From an uncultured Bacteroidales bacterium (lineage in GTDB: Bacteria; Bacteroidota; Bacteroidia; Bacteroidales; FEN-979), in the NCBI GenBank assembly GCA_903885595.1, contig CAISJJ010000035.1:1-55036 (forward strand): 55,036 nt of DNA. Direction: 5' to 3'. The first letter of the stretch is position 1. Every line of letters starts with the position of its first letter. This document shows positions 23,264-28,111 of the stretch, piece after piece. The notes beneath the pieces are model-generated. The model was not told the DNA's origin and did no database searches. It worked only from the letters and a program-made list of their open reading frames with translations. A program made the translations under genes and the position numbers.

Positions 23264-24271
23264 ATGAAGGAGTACATTTACCAGGTCAAAGACCACTCAA
23301 TACTCTTGCCGGCGTTTAAAAAATTCTTCCTTTTACCGTTATCGTCCTCGATATCGCTCCGGATCCCCGCGAATATAATCACCATCATTTCAAACGGCTT
23401 TTTCTACGCGACCATCGGTGTGTCTTCGGCGCTGGAACAGTTGCCCACACTTCGTTTCGCCTGCCTGGCGATTCTGATATTTATTTATCTCACGGGTGAT
23501 CATTTGGACGGACTGCAGGCCAAGCGCACGGGAACCAGTTCACCGCTCGGAGAGTTCATTGATCATTACCTGGATTCCTACATCAATGTGATCTACCTGC
23601 TGGTTATGTTCTCCGTTTTCGGAATCAATAATCTATACCTCCTTTCATTCACCTTGTTTGTAAGTTATTCGGCCCACGCATCCGTATTTTACGAACAGTT
23701 TCGCACTGGCTGGATAGTCTTCGAAAAGTTAGGGCCGTTTGAAGCGTTTAGCCTGATCATCATCCTGTTCCTTATTTGCTGCATCCCAGGGGTCAGCGCC
23801 TTCATGCAAAGTCCGCTTATGTTTGGACTGAGCGTGGCGGAGGTCATGCTCCTGACTATGTGCATCGCTACTTTCTATACCCTGGCCAAAGCCCGGTTGA
23901 GAACCGGGAAAAGCGGCTTTGGATTGTACATTTTCATTTTTCTTCTTGCCCTGGTCACCTTCGCCTGTCTGTCCCTTCCCTTCAGTGCCGCTCTCAGGCC
24001 CTGGATCATCGCCCTCTACAGCATTCACTATGTGGGAATGCTGATCAAGAGCCGGCTCATCGACGATAATTACAGAATGTCCGACCTGATAGTACCTGCT
24101 TTTCTGCTGTTTTGCCTGTTGTTCCCTTCCATCGATCTGGTCCGCACTGATTTGATCGTTTTTGTGTATCTTGCAGCCAGATGCCTGGTTTCGGCCATCC
24201 ATACTTTGTTCCTGTTGCGTGGACATTGGGCATGGGTGAACCCGACAGGCAACTCCCTCTCCTCCAATTAG
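23264..24271 (+). CDS. CDP-alcohol phosphotransferase, eukaryotic ethanolamine-phosphotransferase type
   Basis: About 335 residues from the ATG at 23264 (the frame is open from 23216). It is a polytopic membrane protein with around eight to ten hydrophobic helices. The catalytic CDP-alcohol motif DxxDGxxAR-x8-GxxxDxxxD is present as D79-D82-G83-A86-K87...G96-D100-D104, with Lys in place of Arg. The surrounding sequence GLQAKRTGTSSPLGEFIDH is closest to eukaryotic choline/ethanolamine phosphotransferases (GKQARRT..S.PLGELFDH), which transfer a CMP-activated head group to diacylglycerol. With the phosphonate genes downstream, a CMP-phosphonate donor is likely (inference). The last codons lie in a GC-rich dispersed repeat. 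Confidence 0.85.
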   Translation: MKEYIYQVKDHSILLPAFKKFFLLPLSSSISLRIPANIITIISNGFFYATIGVSSALEQLPTLRFACLAILIFIYLTGDHLDGLQAKRTGTSSPLGEFIDHYLDSYINVIYLLVMFSVFGINNLYLLSFTLFVSYSAHASVFYEQFRTGWIVFEKLGPFEAFSLIIILFLICCIPGVSAFMQSPLMFGLSVAEVMLLTMCIATFYTLAKARLRTGKSGFGLYIFIFLLALVTFACLSLPFSAALRPWIIALYSIHYVGMLIKSRLIDDNYRMSDLIVPAFLLFCLLFPSIDLVRTDLIVFVYLAARCLVSAIHTLFLLRGHWAWVNPTGNSLSSN

Positions 24272-24353
24272 AGGGCTGGGGTGAGGTCATAAAGACTTTG
24301 GGAGAATGTGTATAAAGAGAAGCCCTCCAAGGGGCGGGACAGGGAGGGGCCAT
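24253..24353. repeat. Pair of GC-rich dispersed-repeat-like elements
   Basis: CCCTCT...AGAGGG forms a stem-loop at 24255-24275 followed by GCTGGGGTGAGGTC. A second element (24321-24353) contains GCCCTCCAAGGGGCGGG and AGGGAGGGGC. Both resemble short GC-rich intergenic repeats found scattered in many bacterial genomes. They stand out from the A/T-rich surroundings. The first one supplies the final codons and stop of the CDP-alcohol phosphotransferase. Confidence 0.6.
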
Positions 24354-26034: not shown

Positions 26035-28111
26035 CCATAAATCGCATAAGGCGTTCCTTGATTTCGTAAGGTTTGAGGGAAGGCCGGCCTGGCTCCTTTA
26101 CCGACCCCGGCGTGGTCCTGATGTGAATGAATGTGAGTTGTGGTTCCCGCTGCCATTCACAGATGTATCCGGATAATTCATCTGTTGTGCCGGCTGAAAC
26201 CGCTTTGGTGTAACCTGCGGCAAACGCCAAGGCAGGAAAATCCACTCCGGGAGAAAGAGTCGACTGTCCACCTGTGGAATCGTGCGCAGCATTGTCTAAC
26301 AGTATATGAAGCAGGTTCGGGGGATGGTAATACCCTGCCATAGTGAGGGAAGAAAGCCGCATCAGCAGGGCGCCGTCTCCATCAATGGCCACGACCCGTT
26401 TCCCGGGCCTGCTCATGGCCAAACCCAGCCCCAGAGAGAGAAGGCATCCCATGGAACCCACCATGTAAAAGTTGTTCGGAGCATCATCCAGGTCGCATAA
26501 TTCCCTTCCTGTTTTACCGGTTGTTGCCAGAAGAACTGTATTCTTATCTTTCATCCTGTTGATAGACTCCAGGACTTCCCTTCGAAAAGGCGGGTTAGCA
26601 GCAACTCCATCCCTGGTTAATGCCGGTTTTGCTTCGGTATTCACAGAGCTCTTCTCCAATTCAACATCTGAGAAAATGCCCTTCCTGACGATAAAGAAAA
26701 AAGCCTGGTTTGCGGAAATATATCGTTCGGCCTCCGCCAACTGTACTTGTGCTACCTTCAGATCGGCTGAAAGAAAGGCCCACGGTATTTGCATGACATC
26801 GAGGAGTCTGGTTGTTATGGTGCCCATGAGCTCGTGCTGAGGTTCGTCGGGAATGCCCGGTTCACCCCTCAGGCTTACGAAGCCAAGAACGGGAAGCCTG
26901 AAGATGTTCGTGAGAGAAGTGAGGGGTGAAACCGCATTGGCCAGCCCCGAATTTTGCATAAGAACCACTGCCTTTCGACCTCCGAGTGAAACTCCTGCAC
27001 AAAAAGCGACGGCATCTCCTTCGTTGGCCGAATTGAAGTAATTACATTCGTTCATCGCAAAATTGATCAGCCCTTTCAGAAAAGAACAGGGAACTCCTGA
27101 GAAAAACCGGTAACCCAGATCCTTCAGCTTGTTCCCGAACAAAGTGGTGTCAAGTTTTCCTGGATTTGGGACCGTTGCATTTTGCGTCAGGGCGAGCGGC
27201 AGTTCCTTTTCACCTTCATTGGGATTACAGGGAGCTGCATCAGGAAGGTACCTTTTTTCCGCTTCGTACAGTTCGTCAGTTTCTGTAAGTCTGAATATCT
27301 CCGAAACACCCGCAATGGATGGTTCGACATGTAATGCTGAGGCGAAGGATTCCAGTTTGCTGCTGACATCCTGCATTGCTTTTACACCTGCCCGGAGGTT
27401 CTGGTTCGCCCAGATCACCATACTTATTCCGGCTTTGCGGAAGGTTTCGGCAGGAGTGGCGAAGTATGTGGTCGGAACGGTAATGACAGGCAAGCGTTGA
27501 CCCCATTCTTTCATTAAGGCCTCTATTTCCAAAAAATCGGGTCTCTTGCTGTGTACAAGAATGGCATCAGCGCCTGCAAGCCGGTAGGTTTCGGCCCGGC
27601 GGAGCGCTTCAACCGGGCCCCTGCCGGCAGTCAACGCTTCAGTCCTCGCAACCACCACAAAATCAGGATCGACTTTAGAATCCTGGGCAGCCCTGATCTT
27701 GCCACAGAATTCCTCAATATCTGCCAGTTTTTGCTGGCAACCTTTCATGAAGGAATTCTTCTTCGGGAATTCCTTGTCTTCAAGGCAAACACCGGCGATG
27801 CCTCTCTGCTCCAGTTTTTTTACAAGCCGTCGTACATTGTTAAAATTGCCGAATCCCGCATCCCCGTCCATCAGGATGGGAAGCTCCGTTGCGTCGCTCA
27901 TAAATTCAAGGACATCAAGCGCCTGTGTCCAGGATGCCTCATTGCAGTCGCGAACACCAAGAGACGCTGCGATGGAGAACCCGCTGGCCCAGATTCCTTT
28001 AAAACCTGCTTCTTGCACAATGCGGGCAGAAAGGCCATTGTGGGCCTCCATGATAAAAGACAATTTATCCTTTCGTATAAGCTGTCTGAGCTGGCTTGAT
28101 TTATCTGACAT
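26021..28111 (-). CDS. Fused phosphoenolpyruvate mutase / phosphonopyruvate decarboxylase
   Basis: 696 residues in two enzymes. Residues 1-290 are PEP mutase: MDGDAGFGN (81-89) binds metal, and the diagnostic loop EDKEFPKKNS (111-120) is the EDKx5NS motif that separates true mutases from isocitrate lyases. A linker rich in P and N leads to residues 320-690, a thiamine-diphosphate phosphonopyruvate decarboxylase with FFSGVPCSFLKGLI, ANEGDAVAFCAG and the cofactor motif DGDGALLMR...LLDNAAHDSTGGQS (577-616). Together they make the C-P bond and pull the unfavourable mutase reaction forward to phosphonoacetaldehyde. The two activities are more often separate genes. It is the first gene of the minus-strand operon with the cytidylyltransferase. 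Confidence 0.92.
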   Translation of the reverse strand: MSDKSSQLRQLIRKDKLSFIMEAHNGLSARIVQEAGFKGIWASGFSIAASLGVRDCNEASWTQALDVLEFMSDATELPILMDGDAGFGNFNNVRRLVKKLEQRGIAGVCLEDKEFPKKNSFMKGCQQKLADIEEFCGKIRAAQDSKVDPDFVVVARTEALTAGRGPVEALRRAETYRLAGADAILVHSKRPDFLEIEALMKEWGQRLPVITVPTTYFATPAETFRKAGISMVIWANQNLRAGVKAMQDVSSKLESFASALHVEPSIAGVSEIFRLTETDELYEAEKRYLPDAAPCNPNEGEKELPLALTQNATVPNPGKLDTTLFGNKLKDLGYRFFSGVPCSFLKGLINFAMNECNYFNSANEGDAVAFCAGVSLGGRKAVVLMQNSGLANAVSPLTSLTNIFRLPVLGFVSLRGEPGIPDEPQHELMGTITTRLLDVMQIPWAFLSADLKVAQVQLAEAERYISANQAFFFIVRKGIFSDVELEKSSVNTEAKPALTRDGVAANPPFRREVLESINRMKDKNTVLLATTGKTGRELCDLDDAPNNFYMVGSMGCLLSLGLGLAMSRPGKRVVAIDGDGALLMRLSSLTMAGYYHPPNLLHILLDNAAHDSTGGQSTLSPGVDFPALAFAAGYTKAVSAGTTDELSGYICEWQREPQLTFIHIRTTPGSVKEPGRPSLKPYEIKERLMRFMDEQT

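Follow-up and report, generated by a model that had tools for sequence, protein, structure and literature searches.

In a contig of an uncultured Bacteroidales bacterium of the lineage FEN-979 (GCA_903885595.1, contig CAISJJ010000035.1), analysed over 55,036 nucleotides and hereafter called the window, three enzymes are encoded close together: a fusion of phosphoenolpyruvate (PEP) mutase (PepM) with phosphonopyruvate decarboxylase (Ppd), a PntC-like cytidylyltransferase and a CDP-alcohol phosphotransferase of the eukaryotic ethanolamine phosphotransferase type, referred to as EPT. Judged from their sequences, these enzymes would together make a phosphonolipid by the logic of the Kennedy pathway, a reading to which we give a probability of about 0.6 and in which the pathway is not complete. 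Clusters of PepM, cytidylyltransferase and transferase genes are already known; what is new here is that the terminal enzyme is of eukaryotic class II type and that PepM is fused to Ppd.

The features on which this reading is built are the following.
23264..24271, + strand: EPT-type CDP-alcohol phosphotransferase, 335 aa, ten predicted transmembrane (TM) helices, assigned on a model
23498..23575, + strand: catalytic stretch DxxDGxxAK-x8-GExxDHxxD of EPT, with Glu97 and His101 as in eukaryotic class II enzymes
25300..26034, - strand: PntC-like cytidylyltransferase, 244 aa (PDB 6pd1, E 1e-52)
26021..28111, - strand: PepM-Ppd fusion, 696 aa, a single open reading frame (ORF), TIGR02320 and TIGR03297 both above cut-off
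27242..28111, - strand: PEP mutase half, residues 1-290 (1m1b, E 4e-114 over residues 4-290)
27752..27781, - strand: EDKx5NS motif (EDKEFPKKNS, residues 111-120)
26036..27112, - strand: Ppd half, residues 334-692 (TIGR03297, 375 bits, IDGDG stretch)

Each pathway step is assigned from family membership. The fusion would convert phosphoenolpyruvate into phosphonopyruvate and then phosphonoacetaldehyde, the decarboxylation pulling the unfavourable isomerisation, and an enzyme outside the genes identified would turn phosphonoacetaldehyde into the head group, for which 2-aminoethylphosphonate (AEP) is the likeliest candidate. The head group would next be coupled by the cytidylyltransferase to CMP taken from CTP, and the Glu97/His101 pair of EPT would activate the hydroxyl of diacylglycerol, displacing CMP and yielding a lipid with a carbon-phosphorus (C-P) head group. 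The tailoring steps after PepM are termed enigmatic by Rice et al. 2019 (PMC6697681). The bacterial finishing of C-P lipids is unproven, and EPT is a candidate for this role whose mechanism can be predicted.

The PepM-Ppd fusion and the cytidylyltransferase

The first half of the fusion reaches 341.7 bits with the PEP mutase model TIGR02320 (cut-off 319.55) and matches the solved PEP mutase 1m1b, and the second half reaches 375.4 bits with the Ppd model TIGR03297 (cut-off 312.5), in agreement with an earlier account of this stretch made from its letters alone (the sequence-only reading), which had described a PEP mutase with an EDKx5NS motif fused to Ppd. The EDKx5NS and IDGDG stretches are both intact, and so are the aligned Asp and Arg residues of the PEP mutase half, to which a catalytic role is ascribed in this enzyme. 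A sequencing artefact can be excluded, since P0121-P0124, the four closest relatives in the protein database (72-99% identity), carry the same fusion; two of them share their contig size with PntC relatives, and one of these two also with an EPT. Among 80 related loci from genome_contigs, the main PepM comparison set, PepM and Ppd were never found on one ORF (0/80) and a separate Ppd ORF is present in 75. Fusions of PepM with thiamine-enzyme domains are given as two genes, or 0.1% of the PepM set, in Rice et al. 2019 (PMC6697681); PepM is joined to a Ppd-type domain there as here, whereas the present fusion belongs to at least four close clusters (P0121-P0124).

PepM-Ppd fusions also occur in the amoebae Paramoeba and Stereomyxa (P0127, P0128), at 43-44% identity to the window protein. 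An amoebal origin was rejected, as bacterial PepM and Ppd are nearer (55% for P0126, up to 63% for unfused PepM and up to 60% for unfused Ppd). Since the amoebal fusions are less similar than the unfused bacterial proteins, the bacterial and amoebal fusions likely arose independently.

The cytidylyltransferase ORF overlaps the end of the fusion by 14 bases, and its closest solved relative is the PntC of T. denticola (6pd1), which bears out the overlapping LicC/PntC-like enzyme of the sequence-only reading. In Tde-PntC, replacement of Arg15, Lys25 or Lys153 by Ala leaves less than 10% activity, and Glu104 and Glu196, which are Asp in LicC, are close to the AEP amine (Rice et al. 2019, PMC6697681). 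The counterparts of the first three (R17, K27, K154) and of the two glutamates (E105, E197) are kept in the window enzyme, and all six catalytic or AEP-binding residues checked (these five and D107) are the same as in the T. denticola structures (6PD1/6PD2) and unchanged across all 120 listed homologues. This conservation favours AEP as the substrate, with the reservation that these residues cannot separate AEP from every analogue. Unlike Tde-PntC, the window enzyme stands alone, without a fused AEP transaminase (AEPT), and AEPT was not found in the genome.

The EPT-type phosphotransferase

The ORF of EPT spans 23216-24271 on the + strand. Its nearest homologues (P0001-P0004) begin at Met 23264 and the other aligned homologues start within a few residues of it, in keeping with the start, and with it the interval (23264-28111), first proposed for this locus. 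All five solved-structure matches are CPT1/CEPT1. The metal-binding Asp and Gly residues of DxxDGxx..GxxxDxxxD are all present (D79, D82, G83, G96, D100, D104) together with the extra Glu/His (GExxDHxxD), a pair for which a catalytic role is proposed in PMC10182977; the columns of E97, D100 and H101 are invariant in 68 aligned rows. The predicted model (pLDDT 94) has ten helices, including the TM7-10 part, with strands at both sheet positions, and its fold matches the human phosphatidylcholine- and phosphatidylethanolamine-making enzymes (CPT1/CEPT1/EPT1) over 323-327 of 335 residues at 16-21% identity, a fold comparison that alone leaves room for other transferase families. The EPT-like nature that the sequence-only reading had seen in the catalytic stretch is therefore supported, both by the predicted fold and by the catalytic pair.

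With the eukaryotic class II enzymes the window protein shares GExxDHxxD and, in the model, ten helices, two sheet positions and a near-full-length fold match, and it differs from them in being bacterial, in the linkage of its gene to C-P synthesis and in having AK in place of AR. The choline-contacting Glu65 of CEPT1 is Leu in the window EPT and Thr in at least 90% of the 68 rows. In PMC10182977 the ten-helix fold with Glu/His is described as eukaryotic only, and bacterial tandem CDP-AP proteins are mentioned too; its predicted presence in bacteria bears on the origin of the phosphatidylcholine and phosphatidylethanolamine transferases. T. denticola makes phosphatidylcholine from choline by a CDP-choline pathway (LicCA and CPT; PMC8590670) which, like the one proposed here, is bacterial, of Kennedy type and ends on diacylglycerol, but is choline-based and without a C-P bond. 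As the T. denticola CPT lies outside the comparison, EPT is not claimed to be the first bacterial class II enzyme. A PF01066 search of the genome matched only EPT and PssA, the latter above cut-off on contig C13.

Association of EPT with PepM

In the window, the PepM-Ppd gene ends 1.75 kb from EPT (23264-24271), so that a CDP-alcohol transferase lies near PepM. Relatives of EPT adjoin PepM, Ppd, cytidylyltransferase and AEPT genes in Splendidivirga corallicola BMA10 (L040) and Flammeovirgaceae UBA1842 (L059), with AEPT and EPT on one strand and, divergent from them, PepM, Ppd, cytidylyltransferase, a HAD phosphatase and an LtaS/OpgB-like sulfatase-family protein; the PepM of L059, the one of the two scanned, bears a cytidylyltransferase domain. 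The phosphatase and the 609-620-aa sulfatase-family protein directly follow the cytidylyltransferase (L059:13501-16040, L040:13558-16163). The L059 sulfatase-family protein has sub-cut-off matches to NCBIfam models of phosphoglycerol transferase and lipoteichoic acid synthase, and a protein of this kind could pass the C-P head group on from the lipid to a different molecule.

When the 120 best EPT relatives were compared with the 120 best cytidylyltransferase relatives, nine metagenome-contig sizes coincided, all of at least 4.9 kb, and one of them (23,895 bp) is also that of a PepM-Ppd fusion contig. Sizes shifted by 1-50 gave a mean of 0.95 coincidences (maximum 3), and above 4.9 kb, a threshold chosen after the fact, a mean of 0.1 (maximum 1). 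Relatives of the two enzymes are thus probably carried on the same metagenome contigs.

By motif, some CDP-alcohol phosphotransferase ORF is present in 28 of the 80 PepM loci, and 19 of these 28 ORFs are of 197-231 aa. A count over 89 loci (one contig entering twice) gave 33 such ORFs, of which 31 are without the pair of Glu and His and only those of L040 and L059 have it. A predicted phosphonolipid cluster of a cyanolichen Nostoc (PepM, Ppd, NTP transferase, AEPT and CDP-alcohol phosphatidyltransferase), with a homologous cluster in Burkholderia, is in print (PMC5987646, adapting Yu et al. 2013 PNAS), and the gene content of the transferase-bearing PepM loci agrees with it. PepM, Ppd, NTP transferase and CDP-alcohol phosphatidyltransferase are clustered there as in the window. 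The window differs in that PepM and Ppd are one protein, AEPT was not found and the last enzyme, of 335 aa, is eukaryote-type and has the Glu/His pair. The view that the locus matches no standard one consequently holds for the type of its transferase, those of such loci being of other types, and not for its overall content. The literature searched by title and abstract opening gave no report that links a transferase of EPT type to PepM.

Several observations weigh against the phosphonolipid reading. EPT (+), the CPBP/Rce1-like gene (+), the cytidylyltransferase (-) and the PepM-Ppd fusion (-) follow each other in this order, EPT and the PepM operon being convergent on opposite strands with the CPBP gene between them, so they do not form one operon. 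This type of EPT is present in only 2 of the 80 PepM loci (L040, L059) and in none of nine other PepM genomes of the phylum sample, five of whose nine PepM stretches have another phosphotransferase ORF. The coinciding contig sizes imply shared contigs without demonstrating them, and most of the 120 listed EPT relatives have no match. In EPT itself, Lys87 followed by Arg (AKR) stands where the CDP-alcohol motif has Arg after Ala (AR), Lys being found at this position in at least 90% of the 68 rows. Finally, no AEPT above the TIGR03301 cut-off was found in the genome (G000; 6.02 Mb covered, 94.5% complete).

The opposite strands, the 78 PepM loci without this EPT type and the three clusters of Rice et al. 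(PMC6697681) that adjoin cell-wall glycan genes would also suit a phosphonoglycan, in which the CMP-phosphonate feeds a glycan or lipopolysaccharide transferase and EPT independently makes phosphatidylethanolamine or phosphatidylcholine from CDP-ethanolamine or CDP-choline. This explanation is considered unlikely: EPT is no housekeeping gene in the genomes sampled, not being found at the thresholds used in 60 relatives, 392 genomes of the order and 394 of the phylum (overlapping samples, one of the large surveys scoring at most five candidates per genome), it adjoins PepM and AEPT in L040 and L059, and contig sizes coincide as described. A glycan route via LicD was rejected, as LicD has no match in the genome.

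Overall, the phosphonolipid reading is upheld in its three enzymes, in the EPT-like nature of the last one and in their co-conservation, and not in its completeness. The co-conservation is seen in L040, L059 and the probable shared contigs. The 18 genomes of the genus and 18 of the family have neither gene, and the nine other PepM genomes of the phylum sample lack this EPT. A wider view, that the bacterial ten-helix Glu/His family is a dedicated CMP-phosphonate:diacylglycerol transferase and that a complete C-P Kennedy pathway exists in bacteria, spread on mobile segments, is put forward tentatively, at somewhat less than even odds; if true, the eukaryotic choline and ethanolamine transferases have close bacterial counterparts acting on phosphonates.

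The transaminase and the head group

The set of enzymes had been called complete in the sequence-only reading, a claim that is not borne out as regards the transaminase. No aminotransferase was found among the scanned window proteins, and the TIGR03301 search of the genome gave five weak sub-cut-off matches, the best of which (52.7 of 360.8 bits) was rejected as AEPT, being a cysteine-desulfurase-family protein. The transaminases beside EPT in L040 and L059 score 431-434 bits. Since AEPT was not found, the locus is counted as a variant, not a member, of the AEP-type phosphonolipid cluster. Either the gene lies in the part of the genome that is missing, or phosphonoacetaldehyde is aminated by some other enzyme, or the head group is a different one. 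Of the 80 PepM loci, 14 (some of them short) are without AEPT. In L049, L050 and L054, PepM-Ppd loci of poorly known bacteria, AEPT was not found in the stretch examined, and head groups other than AEP may be made there.

The gap in transamination and three Fe-ADH-family genes in the genome could point to the same lipid logic with another head group, phosphonoacetaldehyde being reduced to 2-hydroxyethylphosphonate or used otherwise. This variant, which overlaps with the phosphonolipid reading, appears improbable, as the glutamates that approach the AEP amine in PntC are conserved and AEPT adjoins EPT in both L040 and L059. The hydroxyethylphosphonate route was rejected, since of the two Fe-ADH proteins scanned (the third, of 909 aa, was left out) one scores 140.1 bits with Phn_Fe-ADH against a cut-off of 423.7 and the other is unlisted. 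Head groups besides AEP are conceivable, as 2-hydroxyphosphonoacetate has been mentioned as a possible head group of Burkholderia phosphonolipids.

The acceptor might also be a sphingoid (ceramide) or other membrane alcohol, giving a phosphonosphingolipid as in Bdellovibrio stolpii, whose membrane lipids reportedly carry 1-hydroxy-2-aminoethylphosphonate (PMC8154272, citing a paper whose title in the reference list names it as a sphingophosphonolipid head group). It likewise overlaps with the phosphonolipid reading and is given a low probability. In about 9 kb of a Bacteriovorax metagenome-assembled genome (L075), not shown to be B. stolpii, a PntC-like gene and genes for a 290-aa transferase, PepM, Ppd and AEPT are grouped.

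A lineage-specific segment

The locus lies at one edge of a segment particular to this lineage, which together with the neighbouring genes comprises the following features.
9416..28933, no strand: lineage-specific segment of about 19.5 kb, all pathway genes inside
24417..25319, + strand: CPBP/Rce1-like membrane protein (PF02517, 30.4 bits, cut-off 22.4)
28934..29008, - strand: tRNA-Met, edge of the segment

At the thresholds used, EPT, the cytidylyltransferase and PepM-Ppd were found in none of 18 same-genus and none of 18 same-family genomes, and the joint absence of EPT and PepM from near relatives fits acquisition as a block. The tRNA-Met, HAD and QueA side of the segment is conserved in the genus: in 15 same-genus stretches HAD adjoins QueA in 13, and ARAGORN placed the tRNA-Met in 12, the remaining stretches stopping at contig ends. 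On the other side, pieces of window 2534-9415 sit 2.7 kb from that tRNA in G008 and the piece 8866-9411 sits 3.2 kb from it in G007, with other sequence between, the segment differing between species of the genus. As this spacing of 2.7-3.2 kb is 19.5 kb in the window, EPT and the PepM operon share one lineage-specific segment. It is so termed, and not an element with known ends, because no repeat of the tRNA-Met 3' end that could serve as attachment site (16-24 bases, up to 3 mismatches) was found in the window. No integrase families were found among the scanned window proteins. Over 17-34 kb the GC content ranges from 0.41 to 0.52, falling to 0.38 at 28.0-29.5 kb.

The CPBP/Rce1-like gene, left unmentioned in the first account of the locus, is placed between EPT and the cytidylyltransferase, the end of which its 3' part meets from the opposite side. 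It has no match in the other loci printed (E 1e-4), and its membership of the pathway is doubtful. The segment also holds an RND efflux set and a 5'-nucleotidase C-terminal-domain protein with a type IX secretion tail (14440-17121, + strand). Type IX secretion domains, a feature pointing to Bacteroidota, are present among other window proteins, including a peptidylarginine-deiminase-like protein (PF04371) with such a tail at 45828-47972 on the - strand.

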